DNA of 64,000 bases from Planctomycetota bacterium (GTDB taxonomy: Bacteria; Planctomycetota; Planctomycetia; Pirellulales; Pirellulaceae). Shown here in pieces: positions 229 through 58,821 of the stretch; positions within the stretch are counted from its first letter, which is position 1; every line of letters begins with the position of its first letter. The stretch spans positions 1 to 64,000 of the forward strand of contig JAPLNI010000025.1 of NCBI GenBank assembly GCA_026692865.1, in the 5' to 3' direction. The position numbers were made by a program, and so were the translations under genes. The notes beneath the pieces were generated by a model. That model worked only from the letters and a program-made list of their open reading frames with translations, did no database searches and was not told where the DNA came from.

Positions 229-1398
229 TCAATAGTCGAACAGCAACATGCAAAATGCTGCGAAAAGCAGCAGATGGACGCAGCCTAATAACATATTCGT
301 TCTTGGCAGTGTGAAAGTCAGCGTCGCGGTGAAAAGGGTCAGCACCAGCATGACCATGTCGGCATTTTCTAAGCCCAGTATTAGTGAGCGTCCAGTGACG
401 AGCGAGATGGCGATGACCAACGGGATAGTTAAGCCGATTGAAGCGAGCGCTGACCCAAGCAAAATGTTGACCGATCTTTGAAGCCGGTTATCGCGAGCAG
501 CGCGAATAGCCGCAATCGATTCGGGCATCAATACTAGTACGGCCATGATGAAGCCCCCCAAGGCAACAGGTGCACCTAGTTTTTCAACGAGTCCATCAAG
601 TGGTTTCGACATTTGCTTGGCAAGCAACACCAGTGGCAACCCGTAACCTACGAGCATCGCCGCGTGATAGAAAGTGCTTCGTGGAGATTGATGCTCTGAA
701 GCATCCTCGATTGCTGCGTCTACTTCTTCGCTTTCGATCGATTCGTCTTCGGAAACGAAGAAACCTCGATGCCTTCCATTTTGCACAAACAAGAAAACGC
801 CATAGATTCCTACCGACATAATCGACAAGAAAATCATCTGGAACGTCGATAGAATTGGGCCTTCGGTCGACCGCGTGAAGTTCGGTAGGACTAAACCTAA
901 AATCGTTAGAGGTACGATCATGATGAGGAAGGCGTTCGCACTCTGGAGATTGTAAGTTTGCTCACGGTATCGCAAGCCACCCAGAAGCAATGCAAGCCCC
1001 ATAAACCCATTGATGACCAACATCACGGCTGCGTACATGGTATCCCTCGCAAGGGTTGGCTTTTCATATCCAGTCGACATTACGAAGCCGATCATCGCAA
1101 CTTCTAAGCCCGTGACGGCCATTGTCAGCAGCAGTGTCCCTCCGGGTTCACCCAATCGAAGTGCAAGCACCTCGGCATGATGCACCATTGCAATCGCCGC
1201 GATTAAAATCACCACGCACAATATCGCCAACCAAAGTATCAGAATCGCCGGCAGTTCTGTCGCACGCACGATCCATCGGCTTCCAAAGAAAGCGACCAAA
1301 AAAGTGCCAAACGTCAAGTAAAGCTGCCACTCGTGCGCAGAAGTCGGATGCGATGTTTTAACTTTTTCGGTAGTGATCAATTTCTTCAACCCTTGCAA
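229..1398 (-). CDS. chaA: ChaA-type calcium/sodium:proton antiporter
   Basis: The protein has 389 residues and about eleven hydrophobic segments. It looks like a cation/proton antiporter of the CaCA superfamily, ChaA branch, which exports Ca2+ or Na+ in exchange for protons across the inner membrane. The two pseudo-symmetric halves carry the family signatures: GEPGGTLLLT...LEVAMI near residues 82-102 in the first half, and PESIAAIRAARDNRLQRSVN near 293-312 in the second, with the acidic residues expected to bind the cation. The stretch TLARDTMYAAVMLVINGFMG and the following LGGLRYREQ also match ChaA. A short acidic loop (about residues 216-236) joins the halves, as in the family. It stands alone, with no evident operon partner. 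The ion specificity cannot be read from sequence. Confidence 0.9.
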   Translation of the reverse strand: MQGLKKLITTEKVKTSHPTSAHEWQLYLTFGTFLVAFFGSRWIVRATELPAILILWLAILCVVILIAAIAMVHHAEVLALRLGEPGGTLLLTMAVTGLEVAMIGFVMSTGYEKPTLARDTMYAAVMLVINGFMGLALLLGGLRYREQTYNLQSANAFLIMIVPLTILGLVLPNFTRSTEGPILSTFQMIFLSIMSVGIYGVFLFVQNGRHRGFFVSEDESIESEEVDAAIEDASEHQSPRSTFYHAAMLVGYGLPLVLLAKQMSKPLDGLVEKLGAPVALGGFIMAVLVLMPESIAAIRAARDNRLQRSVNILLGSALASIGLTIPLVIAISLVTGRSLILGLENADMVMLVLTLFTATLTFTLPRTNMLLGCVHLLLFAAFCMLLFDY

Positions 1399-1546
1399 CT
1401 CAAAAATGCGTCTCTCGTACTAAGCCCTGCTGGAAGTTGTAATGGGATAGTGTCCTTTGGACGATCGCAGGGAAGCTGTATCCGCAAAACAATCACAAAA
1501 AAAGCAGCCGAGTTGGCTAGACTTGACAGCTTTCAAAATCTTGTGA

Positions 1547-1575
1547 CGACATCATATCCGGCGACATCATATCCG
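1547..1575. repeat. Two tandem copies of a 15-bp unit
   Basis: The unit GCGACATCATATCCG is repeated head to tail, the first copy with one change at its first base. It lies in the 287-bp gap between the 5' end of the antiporter gene and the 3' end of the SGNH hydrolase gene. Nothing else was recognised in that gap. It could be an operator pair, but no regulator is suggested. Confidence 0.6.
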
Positions 1576-1685
1576 ACGAAGCTGGCCTAACACACTAGCG
1601 GCGGCAAGCATTTCCGAGAGCGAGGAATTGAATCCACGACACGACATTGTGATGTTTTCTTATGAGATATCTGATGTGAAAGGTA

Positions 1686-2462
1686 CTATTTCGTTTTTGT
1701 GGGTTTTGTCGAAACGCCCGATTCCAAACGGTTGCGTATCTCCGAGGCCACTTGTTTGGCCAAGTACTTGGAACCTTCCGGCGAGTAATGAACATCTGCT
1801 GGAAGCTGAACACCTTCACTCGACTTAGAATAAGCATTCAAGTTGTTGGTTTCGACCCCCAAGTCGCTCATGACTCGGGCGGCTGCTTCGTTGTACTTCT
1901 GCTCGTCTCCTTCGATTCTCCCATTGGCCCCTTTCGGGACTGGAGTCGTTGCGCACCATATCAGCTTTGCACCGGTTTTTTTCAATCGAACAACGAGTTC
2001 GCGAAGGTTCTTTTCGTAGTCGTCCAGCGTTACTTGAGGATGGCTTCCTTTAGCTGTTGGGTCGGTTAGAGTGGCACCGTCAGTCGCGACATACTTGAGG
2101 TCATGCAAGCCCCAATTGAAGTGGATAACATCCCATTTTGAATCGCCAATCCATGCATCAAGACTTTTCAATCCATTCGTCGTCGGTCCACCGTTGGTGG
2201 GAATACGATGCACGTTCGCCTCCTCCTTGAGCAGTTCTCGAACTGGCAACGTATACCCAATGGAAATGGAGTCGCCGATTAGTAATACGCGGGGCAGTCC
2301 AGGATTGTCTTGAATCCTGGCCAGTGCTGGGTTGGGTGAAGCTTTCTTCTTCGCCGCATTTGCAATCGGCTTAGCTTTTGCGGGTCCCGAAGACTCTTGC
2401 GTAATTCCCGATCCTTGAGCGAATAGTAGCAAGATGAGGGCGAGCGTAAATTTGCTTTTCAT
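1686..2462 (-). CDS. Secreted SGNH/GDSL-family hydrolase
   Basis: This 258-residue protein begins with a signal peptide (MKSKFTLALILLLFAQGSG, residues 1-19), so it should act in the periplasm or outside the cell. The SGNH fold is shown by block I, LLIGDSISIGY, with nucleophile Ser65; a Gly in PTNGGPTTNG (block II); Asn116 in HFNWGLHDL (block III); and Asp223 and His225 in PADVHYSPEGSKYL (block V). These complete the Ser-Gly-Asn-His set. Members cleave acyl or carbohydrate esters, and planctomycete members are often linked to polysaccharide deacetylation. No neighbour narrows the substrate. A low-complexity Lys/Ala linker follows the signal peptide. Confidence 0.85.
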   Translation of the reverse strand: MKSKFTLALILLLFAQGSGITQESSGPAKAKPIANAAKKKASPNPALARIQDNPGLPRVLLIGDSISIGYTLPVRELLKEEANVHRIPTNGGPTTNGLKSLDAWIGDSKWDVIHFNWGLHDLKYVATDGATLTDPTAKGSHPQVTLDDYEKNLRELVVRLKKTGAKLIWCATTPVPKGANGRIEGDEQKYNEAAARVMSDLGVETNNLNAYSKSSEGVQLPADVHYSPEGSKYLAKQVASEIRNRLESGVSTKPTKTK

Positions 2463-2991
2463 GATTTTTGTAACTCGAGTTTCTTTGATTCAACTTCGTT
2501 GCGTTCGTTTGTGAATTTCGTGCGTCGACATCTTGAAAGAAGATATTCTCGGTCGATTCGCCTTCGGCGTAACCCAACTCGCGTAGATCGATACCAACAA
2601 CCAATGCAACGAAAGTCAAAGGAGGATTCCACCAACACTCTCATTTTGAGTGTAACTGATGGAGAGACAGTGGTGGTTCAAGCTACAATTTTAGTCAAAA
2701 ATTTTCGACTGCGATTACATTAGTAGATAAATCGCATTTGGAAAAAACTTTCGGGAAAAAACACTTGGGAGATTACGTCTCAATATTGGACTTGCGAATC
2801 GGGTGCGACTGAGCCCGTCAAGAAAGTGGTGCGAACCAACGTGAAATGCACCCCTTACGTAGGCTTCATGACCGACTGGAAATCGAAGAGCCCGGAGAAT
2901 TCAAGTTTGGCTTGCGAAAGCGTATGGCTAGTGCCGGAGTCAGGGTCGCAAATGCCGTCTCAGACGCAGTCGAGCCCGATAAATACTTATT
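2463..2991. other. Intergenic stretch, no gene recognised
   Basis: This 529-bp gap lies upstream of the SGNH hydrolase gene and downstream of the CPBP protease gene. The short frames in it show no motif and no good start signal. The left part should hold the promoter of the SGNH gene. Short A-runs occur near 2743-2763. No clear hairpin terminator was seen for the protease gene. Confidence 0.5.
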
Positions 2992-4230
2992 TTATGGGAT
3001 CTTTGATGGGTCGCCGTAGAGCGTGATGATGGTGAGATTCAGCATGGTCATTCCGTTGAGGCAACAGTGTACGACTAGGCTGGGCCAAATTCGATTGGTG
3101 ATGCGGTACAGATAACCCAGTACCATCCCAAGTGCCGCAAGCGGTAACCAGCTCGCTCCGTAATCAAAATGGGCTAAGCCGAATAAGACGCCGGATACGA
3201 TGACTGGCCACCAAGGAAGCTGGCGGCTATCGGTGATGAATTGTTGATCGGCGTTGAGTTGTAAGTTGTCGCCGGGTTGATCTGCTGGCTGACCTGCTGG
3301 CTCAATCGCGTAATCACTTTCGGAGTCATGCGCAGAGTTCGCTACTGCTTCGTAGGGATTGGCAGGAGAGCTCGGGAAAGATTTGGCTTTGGAGTCCGCT
3401 TGAGGATCGACGGAAGTCAGCATTGTCTTTGAATTCGAGTCCAAATCTTGTGAAGCTGCTACAACAAGACCTTGATCTTCTGTTTGGCGGCGGCCTCCGA
3501 AAATCAGTCTCCATGAACGTGGGCCACGAGAGAGAGATTCCAAAAAGCCTTGAAGCAAAACTCGGAAACCAAACTCTTCCAATAATGGTGCGATGACGAC
3601 AGCCAACCAGATTGCCATTGGAAGACTCGAGGGATCATTCTTGATTGCATCGACAACAGGATGGTTGTAAGGCTTTTTGAATAGTACGGTCGATGCAATC
3701 ATCAAGATATAAATCGGCGGAAGTGCCATGATGAAAGCGAGTAGTCCCAAGCGAATATCTTGGACGATATGCTTGGTCGACCAACCTATGTTGCTTAGAG
3801 AAACTCGATATCGAGCCGCTATAAGAAACGTCATGAGAACGACTGCCGACAACTGAAAAGTCGCAATCGCAACTTTCGGTATCGAGGAAGCAGAGCCTTC
3901 GATCAAGTCGTTACGGTCGACGCCGACTCTGGTCGCGAAGCTTGCTGCTAAAGCCGACACCAGATAAAGCGAGGCCAATGCCATGAAGATATCTGTAAGG
4001 GCCCAACGTTGGATCTGGCGTGGTTGCAGATTTGGAAAGAAGGGAACGCCCTTCACATAGGCGATTACGAATCGCGACCACATAATCATGGACGCGGTCA
4101 GAATCGCAAGTATCAGAAACCCGATGAAAGCGATGGGTGTCGAATTGTTTTGGATAGCGATGTCGCTACTCGTAACGATAGCGGAATCGATAGTTCCACT
4201 TCGATTGGTCAAAGTCAGCAATAAATCCAC
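2992..4230 (-). CDS. CPBP-family intramembrane metalloprotease
   Basis: This multi-spanning membrane protein has the CPBP/Abi (CAAX protease and bacteriocin-processing) signature. The pair of glutamates and the arginine of EExxxR are present in APLLEEFGFRVLLQG (E218, E219, R223 from the chosen start). A later helix carries the metal-binding His in SGVLFGLAHFDYG, and a third conserved helix reads WPSLVVHCCLNG. Family members are glutamic/metallo-type intramembrane proteases. An unusual hydrophilic insertion of about 100 residues separates the first two motifs. The frame stays open to an ATG at 4338, but that would overlap the preceding small gene by 92 bases. I prefer the GTG at 4230, 17 bases after that gene's stop. 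The substrate is unknown. Confidence 0.82.
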   Translation of the reverse strand: MDLLLTLTNRSGTIDSAIVTSSDIAIQNNSTPIAFIGFLILAILTASMIMWSRFVIAYVKGVPFFPNLQPRQIQRWALTDIFMALASLYLVSALAASFATRVGVDRNDLIEGSASSIPKVAIATFQLSAVVLMTFLIAARYRVSLSNIGWSTKHIVQDIRLGLLAFIMALPPIYILMIASTVLFKKPYNHPVVDAIKNDPSSLPMAIWLAVVIAPLLEEFGFRVLLQGFLESLSRGPRSWRLIFGGRRQTEDQGLVVAASQDLDSNSKTMLTSVDPQADSKAKSFPSSPANPYEAVANSAHDSESDYAIEPAGQPADQPGDNLQLNADQQFITDSRQLPWWPVIVSGVLFGLAHFDYGASWLPLAALGMVLGYLYRITNRIWPSLVVHCCLNGMTMLNLTIITLYGDPSKIP

Positions 4231-51343: not shown

Positions 51344-52390
51344 ATGAAATCCAAACCACGTAGTCATTCAAAATTCAATACAGTCAATTCCATCGAATGT
51401 AATCGACTACAGTTTTTGCTTTGTGCGTTGCTCGTTACTTGCATATCCGGATGCGGACCATCTGCGACACGAATCGAAGCAGCCGACAAGTTTGATGGTA
51501 CGTTAGCAAAACTATCTCCTACTCGCGCTATGGAAAGCATAAAGTCCCTGTGCGCAATCGGACCGCGATTTAGCGGTTCAACGGGTATGACTAAGCAGCA
51601 AGAACTTCTCGAAAAGAAGTTCACTGAACTTGGAGCGAAAATCATTTGGCAGCCATTCACGGTCCGCTCGCCACTTGATGGCCAGCCAGTGGAGATGAAG
51701 AACTTGATCGTTCAATACTTTCCAGAGCGAACGAAACGCGTTTTGATTGCTGCTCACTATGACACACGTCCTTTTCCTGATCGTGACCCGACTAATCCAC
51801 GAGGGATTTTTGTCGGCGCAAACGATGGGGCCAGTGGTGTCGCTCTGTTAATTGAGTTGGCTCATCTCCTGAACTATGCAACCAAGAACGCTCCAGACTC
51901 GATCGCTGTCGGCGTCGATCTAGTACTCTTCGATGGAGAAGAGTTGGTCTACCAGGAAGGACGCGATGAGTACTTCCTAGGATCTATCTTTTTTGCTCGT
52001 GAGTATCTCGCCAGTCCTCCTGGCTACACCTACAACGCCGGTGTACTGGTCGATATGATCGGCGATGCAGATCTCTCGCTGTACTACGAAGAAAACTCAC
52101 TCAAGTATGCCATTAATGTGACGAAAGAGTTATGGAAGATCGCGGCTGAACTGAAGCTGAAAGAGTTTAAAACTAAACTGCTTCACGCCGTACGCGACGA
52201 CCATTTGCCGTTGAACGAAATAGCAAAAATTCCGACCTGCGACATAATCGATCTTGACTACAACGATCGAATCAAAAAGCGACTTAATTACTGGCATACA
52301 ACCCAGGATACGCCTGATAAATGCAGCGGCGAATCAATCGTAAAAGTTGCCTCCGTAGTTTGGGTTTGGATTCAACGTCAGAAACCCTAA
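51344..52390 (+). CDS. M28-family peptidase/glutaminyl cyclase-like lipoprotein
   Basis: This 348-residue protein has a lipoprotein signal ending at Cys37 (LLCALLVTCISGC). The catalytic part is the zinc peptidase fold of family M28, close to glutaminyl-peptide cyclotransferases. Visible are RVLIAAHYDTRPFPDRDPTN, the metal-binding Asp161 in GANDGASGVALLIELA, Glu199-Glu200 in LVLFDGEEL, and a later His in VRDDHLPLNEI. It may cyclise N-terminal glutamine or act as an aminopeptidase. It faces the periplasm or outer surface. Its stop codon overlaps that of the convergent ABC permease gene. Confidence 0.86.
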   Translation: MKSKPRSHSKFNTVNSIECNRLQFLLCALLVTCISGCGPSATRIEAADKFDGTLAKLSPTRAMESIKSLCAIGPRFSGSTGMTKQQELLEKKFTELGAKIIWQPFTVRSPLDGQPVEMKNLIVQYFPERTKRVLIAAHYDTRPFPDRDPTNPRGIFVGANDGASGVALLIELAHLLNYATKNAPDSIAVGVDLVLFDGEELVYQEGRDEYFLGSIFFAREYLASPPGYTYNAGVLVDMIGDADLSLYYEENSLKYAINVTKELWKIAAELKLKEFKTKLLHAVRDDHLPLNEIAKIPTCDIIDLDYNDRIKKRLNYWHTTQDTPDKCSGESIVKVASVVWVWIQRQKP

Positions 52391-54756
52391 AGATCTTGTC
52401 GATAAAGAAGGCTACAGCCTATCACAAGCATCACGCCGATGAACAAAGCGTTGCTCCAAAAGGGTTGCCAGAAATCGGTCGGTTGGATGATGCTTTCTTG
52501 CAGCTCGCTAGTCTCTCGTCCAAGCGAAAACGGGTCTTCGTCCGTGATGCAGGACCGAATTGTTGTACCAACAGCAGCCGGTTTCGGATTCATCCAAAAG
52601 AGTGGGCTTACGATCCGATGGAAGATCGTATCGACGAGACTGGGTGTTGGTGTAATGCTTTGAACGACTTGCTTATCAACTGGATTCCATACGCTGATTT
52701 GATTTACTCCCCACGCGATCCACCACTTCCCAGTTGCATCGATATGAATTGCAGAAACTCGATCACTCAAGGGAAGACGCGGGATCGTCCATTTCTCACC
52801 CGTCGCATCGATGCTCCAGATTTTTCCGTCACGGTCCAGCACAACAAACGATTGATCGATAGAGGACATAATCACCTTGCGAGGCACGACGGATCCGAGT
52901 CCTTCGATTGCTAACGGGACACCAAGTTTGAGCGACTTAGCATCTTCGATAGGAACTCTCATCATTCCCTGCTTGTTAGTAGCGACTAAAACCGTCTGAT
53001 TGTTTGCAGCAATCAACGCGAGTGTTCCCTCAGGCAGCTCCAGATCGAGACTATTGGCTGGCTCGAACTGATTCGATCCACTCGTCCGAAGCGCAACTAA
53101 GTTTCCGCGAGTGTAAACAAAAAAATTCTCCTGATCGAAGCTTGGAGTCAAGTCCATCGGTGATTGCGGTTGCCAATCCGAAGGCGTCATCGAAGGGTAA
53201 GTATCAGAGGGTTTGCTATATGGCAAAGCAAACCCGAATAAGCTGACCTGCGGTCGGCCATCGTCCATGTTTGCTGCCTCACGATCAAGTCGAAAGAGTC
53301 CACGTTCGGTCAATGCAACGAGCGTGTCATTCCATTTGATTACTCTGCGCGTCCGCGGAGGAAACTCAGGACCGCTATCGATACGTTGGTCACTCCAAAG
53401 AGGCGGCGCGTTGGTTTGGACCGATGCTTCCGCTTGTGAAGTTGATTGGCTTCCGGGTTCTTGAAGCTCTGGTAGCTTAGCAATTTGCAATCGGATACTG
53501 TCGCTTTGAATGCCACCGAATGGAATCCGATAAGGCCTTCCAAAATACAAAGCACTATCGGGCTTGATCCAGAACGGCCCAATAATGGTCTCTTCACCCG
53601 TAGTTTCACCGTAAGCCGTTTGCCAAAGATTGCTATCCGAATCCCACAATTGCAATCGACCACGGGCCGTCACAGAAAAGACTTTGTCGCTAATCGTTTC
53701 GATCGCGACAATCTTCGGCCACTGAGTAATAATCCCCGACATGACGTCATGAGTAATTCCGATCACCGTGCAGAATCCCCAAAAGAGAGCGGTGATTGCG
53801 ATCGAGATGATCGCATTTTTCCATATCAATCCCGATAGCATCGATACGGAATAGAAAATCATAAAGATAAAAACGAAAACCGGTATGCAAAGCAAAATAC
53901 CAGGGTTCCAGAGCTCGAGCCGCCAACCGACAAGAAGATAAAAGCCCACCAGAATAAAAGAGACGTTCCAGGCGATGAATGCCGTCGCACCAACAAATTT
54001 CGCAATGAGTAACCCAGCTCGCGAAACAGGTTTGCTCAGCAGAAGATGAAGCGAGCCGGCTTGAAACATCTCTGGAATCATGGCGCTGGTGACTACGATT
54101 CCAATGAAGACTCCAACAAGCCCCAGGCCAATTCGCATGATCGTGACAAGCAAAAATCCTTCAATAAACGGCTGAAGTTGTTTCTTTGAAATGGGTAACG
54201 GATCGCTTACTTTGATACCCGCATATCCAACCCAAATCGCATTCGACTCGCCTGATCGAATCATGCCGGGAAAGGCAATCTCGACCAATCGTCGATTTAA
54301 TCGTTGGAGCTTTTCCGTCGGAAGCTTTTCAGTATCCCCCTCGAGAAACCCCTCCAAATCACTTCGTTTTGAAGCCGTTGGCCAAGCGTCAGAAGAATAA
54401 AGTTTGGGTTTATCCAAAACGCTTGATAGGCCTTTGGATAACTCGCCCATCGGCAATCGACCACCACGATTATTCTTATTGCGGTCGATGATTTGCTGCT
54501 TGAGGTCTGGCTCCATGAGCTCCCAAACGGCTTGTTGGGATTTGGATGCTTTCCCGGAAGATGCATTAGTCAATGCATCAATCAACTGAGTCCTAGCAAG
54601 AATCTGATCGGCCTGAAACTCTGTTGTAACTCCTTGGATAATCGAAAACGGAGCGATCGCAACCAGCAAGATCGTCCAGGCAGCCATCAAAACCCACAAC
54701 ACTCGCGATCGAGCTGCTTCACTGAAGCAATCCAGAATAACGGCAAGGTAGGGCAT
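52387..54756 (-). CDS. ABC-2-type permease with inserted beta-propeller-like region
   Basis: The protein has 789 residues. The first membrane segment (residues 17-40) is followed by an extracytoplasmic helical region, then five or so hydrophobic segments between about 185 and 345 (LVTIMRIGLGLVGVFIGIVVTSAMI; the ABC-2 motif AGSLHLLLSKPVSRAGLLIAKFVGA). From about 360 to 745 there is a soluble region of repeated strands ending in tryptophan-aspartate-like turns (VFSVTARGRLQLWD; LVALTERGLFRLD; FVVLDRDGKIWSID; NQISVWNPVDKQ). This looks like a propeller. One last membrane segment closes the protein. The downstream gene on the same strand is its likely ATPase partner, except that it lies upstream in transcription. 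Confidence 0.82.
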   Translation of the reverse strand: MPYLAVILDCFSEAARSRVLWVLMAAWTILLVAIAPFSIIQGVTTEFQADQILARTQLIDALTNASSGKASKSQQAVWELMEPDLKQQIIDRNKNNRGGRLPMGELSKGLSSVLDKPKLYSSDAWPTASKRSDLEGFLEGDTEKLPTEKLQRLNRRLVEIAFPGMIRSGESNAIWVGYAGIKVSDPLPISKKQLQPFIEGFLLVTIMRIGLGLVGVFIGIVVTSAMIPEMFQAGSLHLLLSKPVSRAGLLIAKFVGATAFIAWNVSFILVGFYLLVGWRLELWNPGILLCIPVFVFIFMIFYSVSMLSGLIWKNAIISIAITALFWGFCTVIGITHDVMSGIITQWPKIVAIETISDKVFSVTARGRLQLWDSDSNLWQTAYGETTGEETIIGPFWIKPDSALYFGRPYRIPFGGIQSDSIRLQIAKLPELQEPGSQSTSQAEASVQTNAPPLWSDQRIDSGPEFPPRTRRVIKWNDTLVALTERGLFRLDREAANMDDGRPQVSLFGFALPYSKPSDTYPSMTPSDWQPQSPMDLTPSFDQENFFVYTRGNLVALRTSGSNQFEPANSLDLELPEGTLALIAANNQTVLVATNKQGMMRVPIEDAKSLKLGVPLAIEGLGSVVPRKVIMSSIDQSFVVLDRDGKIWSIDATGEKWTIPRLPLSDRVSAIHIDATGKWWIAWGVNQISVWNPVDKQVVQSITPTPSLVDTIFHRIVSPLFWMNPKPAAVGTTIRSCITDEDPFSLGRETSELQESIIQPTDFWQPFWSNALFIGVMLVIGCSLLYRQDL

Positions 54757-54829: not shown

Positions 54830-55834
54830 CTACTGGTCTACTAGTGTCATGAAGACGTCTTCAAGTCGGATGCGGTGGCGTTCCAAGCTTAACAAGCTAA
54901 CGTTGGCCATCCGAAGTCGGTCGATCAAGTGATCAATATGTATTTGCTCCGACGTCTCAAGTTGAATCGCAAAGTCGATAGGCATCGTGGTAGACTCGCC
55001 GGAAGAATGCGGACAGGGTGATTGCTCAACAGTAAGCAAGGAATCATCAAAGGTCCACATCGAGATGGTTGCCAGGGCTTGCGGATCTACTGCACGACAC
55101 TTGAGATGAACTCGAAGGCGTTTACCGTGCGAATGAGATTCGATGAGTTCGGGAATTGTCCCAATCGTACGAAGTTTGCCTTTAGCCATAATGGCGACGC
55201 GATCACAAATCAATTCGACTTCTTGAAGAATGTGACTATTCAAAAAAATCGTTTTGCCTTGGCTTTTCAATGTGTCGATCAAATCGCGAATCTGCGAGCG
55301 ACCCAGCGGATCCAAACCATCGGTGGGCTCATCTAAGACCAAAATCTCGGGCTTGTGTAGCAAAGCTTGAGCAAGCCCAAGACGTTGACGCATCCCCTTG
55401 GAGTACTTACGAACACTTTCGGTTTCTCGATCGCTAAGACCTACCAGATCAAGAAGCCCCGGAATGGTTGCTTTCATCTTGGATTCGGTTAGTCGGCTTA
55501 GTCTTCCGTAAAAGTAGAGAGCACCAATGCCGGTCAGATGCTTTGGAAAAACTAAGTTCTCTGGAAGGTATCCAATCTTCATCCTGGCGGCGAGTGAACC
55601 GGCAGGCTGTTGAAGAACCGTTGCGTTTCCTGATGTTGGTCGCAGGATTCCTAGTAGTAGTTTAATCAGCGTGGTCTTGCCAGCGCCATTGGGTCCCAGC
55701 AGCGCGAAGACTTCCCCGCGAGCTACTGAAATCGCAACATTATCCAAAGCCTTTAGCGAACGACGTCGAAACCAGCCACGACTGTAGGACTTACATAGGT
55801 TGTTGGTCTGAATAACGAGATTCGGATCGTTCAT
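54830..55834 (-). CDS. ABC transporter ATP-binding protein
   Basis: This 334-residue ATPase should power the adjacent ABC-2 permease encoded next in the same direction. The Walker A motif is ALLGPNGAGKTTLIKLLLG (residues 45-63). The signature motif reads KYSKGMRQRLGLAQALLHKP, with YSKGM in place of the common LSGGQ, as is usual in this exporter group. Walker B is EILVLDEPTDGLDPLG, and the switch His is in FLNSHILQEVE. The C-terminal 90 residues are a separate DUF4162-like tail. Substrate unknown. It follows the acidic orphan gene by three bases. Confidence 0.93.
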   Translation of the reverse strand: MNDPNLVIQTNNLCKSYSRGWFRRRSLKALDNVAISVARGEVFALLGPNGAGKTTLIKLLLGILRPTSGNATVLQQPAGSLAARMKIGYLPENLVFPKHLTGIGALYFYGRLSRLTESKMKATIPGLLDLVGLSDRETESVRKYSKGMRQRLGLAQALLHKPEILVLDEPTDGLDPLGRSQIRDLIDTLKSQGKTIFLNSHILQEVELICDRVAIMAKGKLRTIGTIPELIESHSHGKRLRVHLKCRAVDPQALATISMWTFDDSLLTVEQSPCPHSSGESTTMPIDFAIQLETSEQIHIDHLIDRLRMANVSLLSLERHRIRLEDVFMTLVDQ

Positions 55835-55837
55835 GTT

Positions 55838-58561
55838 CTATGTGTTACCACACCATCGGACTCGAACCGTCGTTTGGTGATAGAAGAAGTCGAGATCAAA
55901 TGTCACTCCATTTTTGCTCAAATCGGTTTGGCTCATTCGTGGCAATGCCTTGGCAGCAATCGCTACTTGTTCAAGCTCTCGTTTGTTGGGCCTTCGATAT
56001 CTTTGTTCTGCAACAAATCGCTGAATAAGTGGGTACGAGTCTTCTCCCGCAACATCGAAATCAAACTGCTCAATGAACCAAAGATCAATCGGCGGAATCT
56101 CATGGGACTCGCCAAAGTTTAAGAAAGTAACATCCGATTGCATGGAGTCAGCGTCCTCGTCGGCATCCTCATCACCACCGTGATTGGCTTGCTGAGCACT
56201 CAGTTGGCTATCATCCTTTCCTTCAGTTCTTCCTACGATATTTTTATCGTCGTCGTCTTTATCATCGTCGTTGGCATCCTCCGAATCGTCTTCTTCATCA
56301 GATTCAAATGCACTCATCGCTCGAAGATTTTCGAGATCGTCGCTGCAAACAATTCCAAAGTGAAAGCCAGACTGCCCGATGACACAAACATAAAACGGAT
56401 CGTGTTCTTCATTTGGAAAAGTAATCTCGATGATTTTGTCCGACGGAATCCATTTCCAAACGGATGCGTTATAGAAATCACGAATAGCCCCGTAAAAGAC
56501 TCGCAACTCGCTCTCGGTCACTTCACAGCAATCGAAGAGACTTTCACGCATCGAAGCATCGCTGCAATGCAATATCAAGTGCTCGACGGCGTTGTCCAGC
56601 AGCGAGTCTTCATCGACCTCGCATTGCTCAATTTCAATGCCGAGTCGCTCTTGAAAAATTGCGACTGTCTCGGGAATGGTGTGTGGATGAACTTTGATTT
56701 TCACCGGCAGCGTCGGTTCCATATCTTCCGAAAGGGGATAAAACATCCCTTTCATAATTGTTCTCGCTAGATAGTCTGCACTTGGGCGAGACTCGGTCAA
56801 ATCGTGTATCCGAATCATTTCCGATTCCTCATCGATAACCAGCGCGACACAAGATTTGCGAGGTGTTGCCGCATCGGAAATCCAAATCGGTGGTTGAAAA
56901 ACTCCGACGTGCCAAATTTCTTCTGATACGGGTAATGCCTTTGCTTTCGCCCAATTTTCGTCGGTGAGCTGAACATCTTGGTCGACCTTATTAATCACAT
57001 CCAAGAGTCCTTCCATCATATCCGCTGGGAGGCCCGCTTCAGCATCGTACTCGCAGTCGATTTCTAAATCGCCACAACGTTTTTGCCAACTGCTCGCGAG
57101 GCTGCGTTTGGTGAGAAGGAGTTGCGATGGGCGGTGAGGTTCTTGGTTTTGCCCATCAAGCATCGTTTGAACAAGCACATCCCAAAGTCTTGCGTTGGTA
57201 GGTTTTTCGTCGTCCGCTTCAACACAGAGCAGTTCCTCTTGGTTGACATCGTAGACGAATGTGCAATACGTGGTTTCTGCAAGTTGCTTTGATTCCAAAA
57301 TCCATGTCGATGGTTCACGAGGAAGTGATGCGAGCATCTGAATCTGTCGCTTGAAATCAACTTCCGGTGTAACACTTGGTTCTTGAACATAATTTAGTGT
57401 ATTTCGCATGTGTCGCACAAAGCCTGCCGTTGATCGGATCGCAAATCCACCCACGCTTGCGATCCACGAAGCTTCTTCCTGGCTGCCAGGTTCGAAGTCG
57501 GTCGAGTAAGTCTCTTCCCAGTAACCATCTCCTAAGAAAACTTCAATCAAGTGGCTATTTCCCTTGGCAACTTTCTGAAGATTCTCAACAGCGAGTTCAG
57601 ATTTTGGATCGGATTGAAACTCGATCAGCGATTTCAATAAGTTCAGTGCAGTTTCCGAACAACAACCATCAGAGCCAAGTGACTTTACGATGCTTCTTGC
57701 AAAACCAAAATGCTCCTGCTCATACTGACGAAAGCAGTGGATCGTCAGTTGTCCTTGCAAATCCCCATCGATTCTCTTGTCGATGATTTGATGGATTTCT
57801 AGCACTTCGTCTCGTTGGCCCAAACGCCATAGGTGGAAGCAGGCATCGATTGTCGCACCAACATACTCATCCTCGAAAGGGGACTGATACTCAGGGTGCT
57901 TTCGAGACGCTTCGAAAAACCATTCTGCTTCCTTGATCGCGGTTCGAAGATATTCGAGTCGCTTAGAATCATCCTGAGTATGGCTGCTTGCAAGTATCCA
58001 GGCTCCGACCAGTTGAGGGCAAATGGTAGTTGTGTCTAAGCACAAAGAGAGTTTTCTCTCTTCGTCCAAATTTGGCGTGTAGCAACTTAGAAGTTCGCTG
58101 GCTTCCGAATATCCTGCTGGAAGAAGTTGATCAGGGATAACATTGCCGAGTTCCAGGAATTCATCGTCGTCAAAAGATTCTTGCGAATCTGGATCGCGAT
58201 CCAGAAACCAACTCGGCAGCGGCAAGTTTTCGATGTCCTCGGACAATTCGCGGTCGTCCGAATCGTCGTCCGAATCGTCGTCCGAATCGTCGTTGGAGGC
58301 TTTGCTCAGACTTGCCATGGCCTCGAGCATCGTTCGAAAGTCTTCTGGGCTAGGTTCGACCGAATCGTCGTTAGTTTCAGCCCAAAGGAGCCGCAGTTGC
58401 TCAATCACCTCGGGTTCGCGAAGCAACTCTTCGTGAATGTCGTCGTGAAAGCTATCTGGTGTTTCTTCGCGGTTTACCTTGGCTGCATCCAGCGATGTAT
58501 CATTCGACGCCTCCGGTGATTGCTCTGAAGACTTGCGACTTTTTCCCTTTTTTTTCGCCAT
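55838..58561 (-). CDS. Large acidic protein of unknown function
   Basis: From the ATG at 58561 (MAKKKGKSRKSSEQ) the product has 907 residues. I do not recognise a family. The N-terminus is basic, then a highly acidic stretch appears near 90-115 made of DDDS repeats, matching a 12-bp tandem repeat in DNA. Residues 180-340 look like helical repeats. The middle contains LLLTKRSLASSWQKRCGDLE, then WHVGVFQPPIWISDAATPRKS, as in a mixed alpha/beta domain. A second acidic run (EEDDSEDANDDDKDDDDKN) lies near 785. There is no signal peptide or membrane segment, so it should be cytosolic. It precedes the ABC ATPase gene by three bases. Confidence 0.78.
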   Translation of the reverse strand: MAKKKGKSRKSSEQSPEASNDTSLDAAKVNREETPDSFHDDIHEELLREPEVIEQLRLLWAETNDDSVEPSPEDFRTMLEAMASLSKASNDDSDDDSDDDSDDRELSEDIENLPLPSWFLDRDPDSQESFDDDEFLELGNVIPDQLLPAGYSEASELLSCYTPNLDEERKLSLCLDTTTICPQLVGAWILASSHTQDDSKRLEYLRTAIKEAEWFFEASRKHPEYQSPFEDEYVGATIDACFHLWRLGQRDEVLEIHQIIDKRIDGDLQGQLTIHCFRQYEQEHFGFARSIVKSLGSDGCCSETALNLLKSLIEFQSDPKSELAVENLQKVAKGNSHLIEVFLGDGYWEETYSTDFEPGSQEEASWIASVGGFAIRSTAGFVRHMRNTLNYVQEPSVTPEVDFKRQIQMLASLPREPSTWILESKQLAETTYCTFVYDVNQEELLCVEADDEKPTNARLWDVLVQTMLDGQNQEPHRPSQLLLTKRSLASSWQKRCGDLEIDCEYDAEAGLPADMMEGLLDVINKVDQDVQLTDENWAKAKALPVSEEIWHVGVFQPPIWISDAATPRKSCVALVIDEESEMIRIHDLTESRPSADYLARTIMKGMFYPLSEDMEPTLPVKIKVHPHTIPETVAIFQERLGIEIEQCEVDEDSLLDNAVEHLILHCSDASMRESLFDCCEVTESELRVFYGAIRDFYNASVWKWIPSDKIIEITFPNEEHDPFYVCVIGQSGFHFGIVCSDDLENLRAMSAFESDEEDDSEDANDDDKDDDDKNIVGRTEGKDDSQLSAQQANHGGDEDADEDADSMQSDVTFLNFGESHEIPPIDLWFIEQFDFDVAGEDSYPLIQRFVAEQRYRRPNKRELEQVAIAAKALPRMSQTDLSKNGVTFDLDFFYHQTTVRVRWCGNT
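58254..58293. repeat. 12-bp in-frame tandem repeat
   Basis: The unit AATCGTCGTCCG is repeated about three times on the plus strand. It encodes the DDDS repeats of the large acidic protein on the minus strand. Being a multiple of three, copy number can change without frameshift. Confidence 0.8.
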
Positions 58562-58821
58562 CCGATTATTTCCCAAATCCTCTATTACAGGATCACGAAT
58601 ACAAAACACGTGCACTGGACCGACTTTGATAGTTTAGATCTCAATCAAGATTGTAAACCGTTCGCCTACAACCACATAGACAGGTAAAAAATGGGTTGGA
58701 CAGTCCGCTCAAAATTTGCTACTCCCTGGACAGAGATGTGTCGTGGTAGACCGAGACCGGAACCGACTGATTTCGACGGTCTCAGAAATTGGCCCACAGA
58801 AAAATATAAAGTAATCTGTTT

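Follow-up and report, generated by a model that had tools for sequence, protein, structure and literature searches.

An ABC-2 permease of Planctomycetota with a WD40-like propeller and a helical domain that recurs in unrelated proteins

The ATP-binding cassette (ABC) permeases closest to the protein described here are those of PF12679 (ABC2_membrane_2), which we take to be NosY/GldF-like. NosDFY is an ABC-2 exporter whose periplasmic partner, a beta-helix protein, is separate, and in ABC-2 permeases the coupling loop between the second and third transmembrane segments (TM2 and TM3) touches the ATPase. In-frame insertions in unrelated genes are described for the Rickettsia palindromic elements in the available part of PMC10969869, while the corresponding part of a paper on the HABAS and BEAN insertion domains names few hosts for them, of transcription and translation (PMC11515920). 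Our subject is the gene at 52387..54756 on the minus strand of a 64,000-nucleotide stretch (the window) of contig JAPLNI010000025.1 from a Planctomycetota bacterium (assembly GCA_026692865.1), a single open reading frame (ORF) of 789 amino acids without internal stop. With little doubt, judging by this reading frame, PF12679 and the relatives, it encodes an ABC-2 permease with two inserted domains. The core membrane segments, the coupling-loop motif and the ATPase gene next door are as in PF12679 permeases; the difference lies in the addition of a helical domain of ~135 residues and a propeller of ~360 residues, and relatives without both added domains exist. As predicted here the architecture is new and is conserved across the order, and no open PMC paper was found that reports by title the fused permease or such a helical domain. 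The initial annotation of the window had already proposed an ABC-2 permease with a propeller ahead of its last helix, which is borne out by the PF12679 core, WD40 profile matches, internal repeats and hydropathy; it had nothing on the other insertion, between TM1 and TM2.

PF12679 covers residues 11-333 of the permease (E 2.2e-13, 50.6 bits against a gathering cut-off of 27.2) and, at E <= 0.01, matches all 22 members of alignment A1, which consists of 22 relatives including the window permease. Hydropathy averaged over this family has six peaks (residues 19-35, 205-225, 253-274, 289-304, 311-332 and 769-780) and gives the order along the chain as five membrane segments, the propeller domain and one further membrane segment. 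The segments, all drawn from the averaged hydropathy and all on the minus strand, are TM1 (residues ~19-40, 54637..54702), TM2 (~203-225, 54082..54150), TM3 (~253-276, 53929..54000), TM4 (~288-306, 53839..53895), TM5 (~311-334, 53755..53826) and TM6 (~767-786, 52399..52458). On the same strand the helical domain takes up the TM1-TM2 loop (residues ~42-178, 54223..54633), as judged from its recurrence in unrelated hosts and from helices in a low-confidence model, and the propeller takes up most of the TM5-TM6 loop (residues ~347-703, 52648..53718). Between TM2 and TM3 (54007..54081, minus strand) is a conserved LLLSKP-SR stretch, in which L238, L239, S241, K242, P243 and R246 are invariant in 22 sequences and which we read as the cytosolic coupling loop. 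A conserved segment ahead of TM6 (52462..52647, minus strand) has the invariant P718 and P724; its consensus in the family is PLYTxFPKPGEL, where the window permease has NPKPAAV.

The ~375 residues between TM5 and TM6 contain repeats, and their predicted fold is a WD40-like beta-propeller. Against the PDB, both the full-length A1 profile and A3, its propeller part alone, find WD40 propellers (best E 8.8e-16 and 3.8e-15, respectively); A3 matches 193 distinct PDB sequences at E <= 0.01, and the 60 listed are all propellers by name. One Pfam beta-propeller model matches 9 of the 22 family members at E <= 0.01. The second-best self-alignment of the profile scores 61.9, whereas 40 column shuffles average 10.2 and reach 14.1 at most, and self-alignment places repeat units near profile columns 6, 103, 169, 214, 256 and 297, with a further unit between columns 6 and 103 judged by eye only. 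Of the initial annotation's "about six repeated strand groups" the repeats hold, while the count is put rather at seven units, and a seven-bladed propeller is probable. Support is good for the long self-alignments (E 9.4e-8 to 1.7e-5), whereas the positions of single units depend on short alignments of low probability (0.5-8%), so that the blade number is uncertain. The permease's domain is like WD40 beta-propellers in sequence profile and repeat units, and unlike them in sitting in a transporter loop and in the degeneracy of its repeats.

Some results weigh against the propeller. The window permease by itself matches no Pfam propeller model up to E 1. AlphaFold gave a predicted local distance difference test score (pLDDT) of 34.5 for the whole permease and of 43.6 for the propeller alone, with partial blades; each time the input was a two-sequence alignment of the window protein and its 93%-identical relative L021, and the low scores are put down to this shallowness. 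Both models being poor, the fold rests on sequence. Foldseek with the poor propeller model returned TM-scores of 0.18-0.26 of the query among the 50 matches listed; WD40-type and other propeller folds appear there by title, and the result is given little weight.

The gene preceding the permease encodes an ABC ATPase of 334 amino acids (54830..55834, minus strand; PF00005, 7.2e-29), with a gap of 73 bases to the permease downstream. Its translation shows GPNGAGKTT, SKGMRQRLG and ILVLDEP, presumably the Walker A, signature and Walker B motifs. The ATPase adjoins the permease in 22 of 23 loci (the window counted), the exception, L037, ending at a contig end. A full-length relative, L021 (93% identity), is from a public Planctomycetaceae genome record, and one single-protein query of genome contigs returned this relative only.

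Among 40 related genomes, 28 match the permease, 23 of them with the propeller permease and 5 with the core or the TM1-TM2 domain only. A sample of 296 genomes of the order, including those behind the profile, carries the whole architecture as one match in 62 cases and in pieces in 6 more (in one of the six, G600, only the ends of the architecture were seen); within the window's own family it is present in 53 of 66 sampled genomes (50 whole, 3 pieced). Among 392 sampled genomes of the phylum, 8 gave full-length matches, and of these only G399 lies outside the order. Genome tallies were counted by hand from the match table, and the order and phylum searches scored only 2-3 candidates per genome for A1, or up to 10 for A6 (an alignment of 26 copies of the helical domain, 21 from permeases), so these counts are lower bounds. 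As for relatives outside the planctomycetes, the permease was not found in plasmids, and A1 found none in viral contigs.

Relatives lacking the propeller come from six genomes of a single genus (G026, G448, G465, G480, G485 and G489). They jump from profile position ~350-360 to ~674-689 and are also without positions ~47-178, the TM1-TM2 domain; PKPLEL is retained before TM6 in the three that were read (L043, L091 and L095). In G474, of the same family as this genus, both domains are matched, in pieces. G104, from elsewhere in the phylum, has a distant relative (L060/L100) whose TM5-TM6 loop likewise holds a propeller, though a divergent one, and whose TM1-TM2 loop gives a PDZ-like match (E 0.0013; 19.4 bits, where the cut-off is 27). 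On the permease tree, which leaves out 20 of 72 rows for low coverage, the propeller label requires at least 3 changes. There the genus without propellers, G474 and the remainder meet at a fork that is not resolved, and four distant rows without a propeller stand on long branches among propeller rows, so that gain and loss of the propeller are both compatible with the tree. In other planctomycete ABC-2 permeases (L064, L067, L071, L076 and L078) ~100-230 residues lie between the point where the TM5 alignment ends and the point where it resumes ahead of TM6, and the loop thus seems open to insertions.

The helical domain of the TM1-TM2 loop is a more surprising result than the propeller permease. 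Columns ~30-200 of A1 matched proteins that are not ABC-2 permeases, though the profile was built from permeases alone: a 1819-amino-acid PQQ/TPR protein in G029 (1.2e-22), ResB in G149 (9.3e-20), TatC in G473 (3.3e-17), a GntP permease in G528 (2.7e-16) and an MFS transporter in G426 (1.0e-15), these E-values being per one genome and the hosts named by Pfam. From A6 the domain is about 110-140 residues long, longer in some copies, with a conserved end, RLNRLLLEAAFP, and R114 as the single column invariant in the 26 copies. Each Pfam or NCBIfam model finds at most one of the 26 copies at E <= 0.1 (best single-copy E 0.0065 and 0.0011, respectively), and the best PDB match has an E of 0.43. Intein splice junctions have Cys or Ser first and His-Asn last; the 26-copy alignment has no such start or end, and an intein was rejected.

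When all candidates in the 40 related genomes were scored, 56 matches were found in 29 genomes, 23 in this permease and 33 elsewhere; in the window genome the permease copy is the only one. Across the phylum sample the domain occurs in 75 of 392 genomes at 1e-6, permease copies counted, and at E <= 0.001 single genomes hold as many as 11 (G090), 10 (G183), 9 (G161) and 8 (G120) copies. Outside the permease, 117 non-redundant host ORFs hold 120 copies and, with the domain masked, fall into 67 BLAST clusters (E 1e-5), a number that overcounts families, MFS alone being spread over at least three (the L096 group, L158 and L261). Host sequence flanks the domain on both sides in 107 of the 117, with ORFs read from stop to stop, and among the matches listed only 2 (G128 and G110) have a stop codon inside. 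A Pfam family was found for 29 of 35 hosts scanned, giving 25 host types: MFS, GntP, TatC, ResB, PQQ, SecA, Topoisom_bac, Peptidase_A8 (LspA), COX3, MotA_ExbB, ACR_tran, Nucleos_tra2, VTT, FtsX, LptC, FGE-sulfatase, Patatin, Pkinase, SSF, BPD_transp_1, Transp_cyt_pur, a CHASE2 cyclase, AAA_21, SBP_bac_1 and another ABC-2 permease (L192), in which the domain is read between TM5 and TM6. The weakest named hosts include the CNT transporter L278 (6e-5) and the patatin L165 (9e-6); a penicillin-binding protein, L284, with a weak domain match (2e-3), is among the 29 and outside the 25 and the 117. The available part of a TatC survey mentions no such insertion (PMC3827258).

Among individual hosts, two copies each are present in L268 (G120, minus-strand ORF 1024-3087), L231 (G183, 546-3134) and L282 (G161, 1288-2592), those in L231 and L282 standing in tandem. 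Cytosolic hosts with the domain inside the enzyme are the SecA L250 (G161, 379-3354, minus strand) and the topoisomerase I L194 (G356, 373-3249, minus strand). A further match (G008:C91:23755-23931, 2.5e-6) lies within an open frame of 10927 codons.

How cleanly the domain is inserted can be seen by comparing hosts with the domain-free SecA and TopA of the window genome. The topoisomerase I of G356 aligns with the window genome's gene over residues 12-215 and 370-705; between these parts it has 154 residues where the window genome has 84 bases (28 codons), and the 126 extra residues equal the length of its domain copy (residues 240-365). For the SecA of G161, 160 residues (459-618) face 48 bases; the domain match, which falls between stretches of the SecA family models, takes up 117 of them (502-618), so that part of the surplus is not the domain.

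We consider it close to an even chance, if slightly under it, that what sits in the TM1-TM2 loop is one copy of a mobile element, as large as a domain, that has spread in frame across planctomycete hosts, mobility being inferred from the distribution of the copies and movement itself not having been seen. Non-permease copies in different hosts of the same genome have a likeness of 0.265, against 0.229 for shuffled genome labels (standard deviation 0.008, maximum 0.252, n=300). In a tree built from 90 copies, each host being represented once per lineage, 75 rows carry lineage labels; these need 33 changes against 48.0 when shuffled, a value never as low in 200 shuffles. The clustering comes mostly from one lineage, f44, whose 23 copies, from three genomes, each have a different host and need 8 changes against 19.8 (0 of 500 shuffles as low); f1 clusters too (5 of 500), and f75 marginally (20 of 500). 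A burst of the domain in at least one lineage, f44, belongs to the mobile-element reading and shares its nearly balanced prospects.

There are points on the other side. Six of nine lineages are unclustered on the tree of copies, f50 at 156 of 500 shuffles and f93, f111, f6, f72 and f28 at 500 of 500, and since f93 includes the ten copies of G183, the odds of a mobile element are lowered. The tree is without a starred branch, and 65 of its 87 inner branches are open. The G+C content of the copies varies by lineage from 0.35 to 0.71, so composition may inflate the clustering. The most alike pair in different hosts has 52% protein identity, so no recent pair is seen, and blastn between copies in different hosts gives matches of ~20-205 bp only, most of them near the 3' end coding RLNRLLLEAAFP. 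The copies yielded no DNA ends or palindromes, and no near-identical pair; none of the six looked at for inverted repeats has one of 14 or more, and across 39 of the 154 copies the average for the longest exact inverted repeat is 9.67, against 9.51 after codon shuffling, with a maximum of 18 in both. One copy searched against plasmids and phages gave no match.

Many of the same data could be accounted for by a domain that is not mobile at all, a functional adaptor which selection has shuffled to proteins that bind one common partner, and this is a serious contender to which we would give somewhat less than an even chance. It would explain why the domain is conserved as a protein and nearly always in open frame, why third codon positions of the copies are more diverged than first and second, why the host continues on both sides in most cases, and why most lineages do not cluster. 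A single shared partner is, however, unlikely for hosts that range from cytosolic SecA and topoisomerase I to membrane transporters. The greater likeness of same-genome copies and the clustering of f44 across 23 hosts also speak against an adaptor, as does the window genome, with its single copy and its domain-free SecA and TopA.

A mobile domain would resemble the Rickettsia palindromic elements, as far as the available part of that source describes them, in lying in frame in unrelated genes with several copies per genome. It would differ in size (about 350-400 bp, against ~150 bp), in having no inverted repeats above codon shuffles, and in occurring across Planctomycetota rather than in Rickettsia. 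With HABAS and BEAN, as portrayed in the accessible portion of their source, it has in common that a small domain is inserted in several unrelated proteins; it is unlike them in its 67 clusters and in that its named hosts include many transporters and envelope proteins. A mobile element of this kind is not described in the sources searched. A small domain entering dozens of unrelated genes in frame would, if true, be either a domain-sized mobile element or a very promiscuous adaptor, and either outcome would open a way to new protein architectures in a phylum with odd cell biology; the former would be a counterpart of the Rickettsia elements at the scale of a phylum, but as large as a complete domain and retained as protein.

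For the permease itself, a coupling loop between TM2 and TM3 puts the TM1-TM2 and TM5-TM6 loops outside, and very probably both the propeller and the helical domain are in extracytoplasmic loops. The charge of the loops adds nothing to this, with lysine plus arginine per residue at 0.106 in the propeller and 0.152 in the supposedly outer TM3-TM4 loop, against 0.091 and 0.126 in the inner TM2-TM3 and TM4-TM5 loops; charge leaves the topology unsettled. The ATPase and permease would form an ABC-2 exporter, the permease presumably as a homodimer. The propeller, outside and directly before the segment found at the outer exit of ABC-2 exporters, would be a docking platform over that exit, holding a substrate or envelope partner while ATP hydrolysis powers export or extraction, and would replace the separate periplasmic partners used elsewhere. 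The likeness to NosDFY would lie in a platform of beta structure over the outer side of the ABC-2 dimer; the difference is that the platform here is a propeller within the permease chain. The helical domain would have come into the TM1-TM2 loop as one of the phylum's many in-frame insertions and then been kept.

Sequence evidence firmly supports the ABC-2 core and the propeller, pairing with the ATPase, conservation in the order and the presence of the helical domain in unrelated hosts. The explanation as a whole, an ABC-2 exporter with an outer propeller as docking platform and an inserted helical domain, is in our judgement fairly probable; the docking mechanism taken separately is a tentative proposal, rather less than evenly balanced. 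With an exporter that bears a propeller of its own at the exit, it would become possible to test how ABC-2 systems engage envelope partners. The surroundings of the gene count against the proposal in that they point to neither substrate nor partner: with antisense shadows of the two genes set aside, no neighbour is common to more than 7 of 22 loci, and besides the ATPase a pair of adjacent genes is shared by 7 of the 22.

The lack of any neighbour kept in most loci to suggest a cargo would also suit a mechanotransmitter, in which ATP hydrolysis moves the outer domains onto an envelope partner and no cargo crosses, and a pair of large, conserved domains on the presumed outer face would be in keeping with such a role. 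We think it unlikely, given that the ABC-2 fold belongs to exporters and that most loci have no linked partner gene either. Much less likely still is a propeller in the cytosol, binding cytosolic partners, which the initial annotation had allowed alongside an outside position that could couple export to the sensing of a ligand. The closest solved propellers are mostly intracellular eukaryotic proteins by name, and the charge counts are indecisive; the ABC-2 topology, with five membrane segments preceding and the TM2-TM3 coupling loop, nevertheless puts the TM5-TM6 loop outside, and the conserved exit-side segment comes right after the propeller. Misassembly or a fusion of two genes, also raised by the initial annotation, is scarcely conceivable for an architecture that recurs as a single match in 62 of 296 genomes of the order and in pieces in 6 more, the one-contig genomes G007 and G012 among those that carry it.

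Upstream of the exporter genes in the window, an ORF of 925 amino acids (55838-58615, minus strand) ends 3 bases ahead of the start of the ATPase and so may be the operon's first gene; it is present in fewer than 3 of the 22 loci compared. The window genome also encodes two more ABC-2 permeases, L079 and L080, with a long second membrane part behind the ABC-2 core, and these resemble fusions with a CPBP-type protease.

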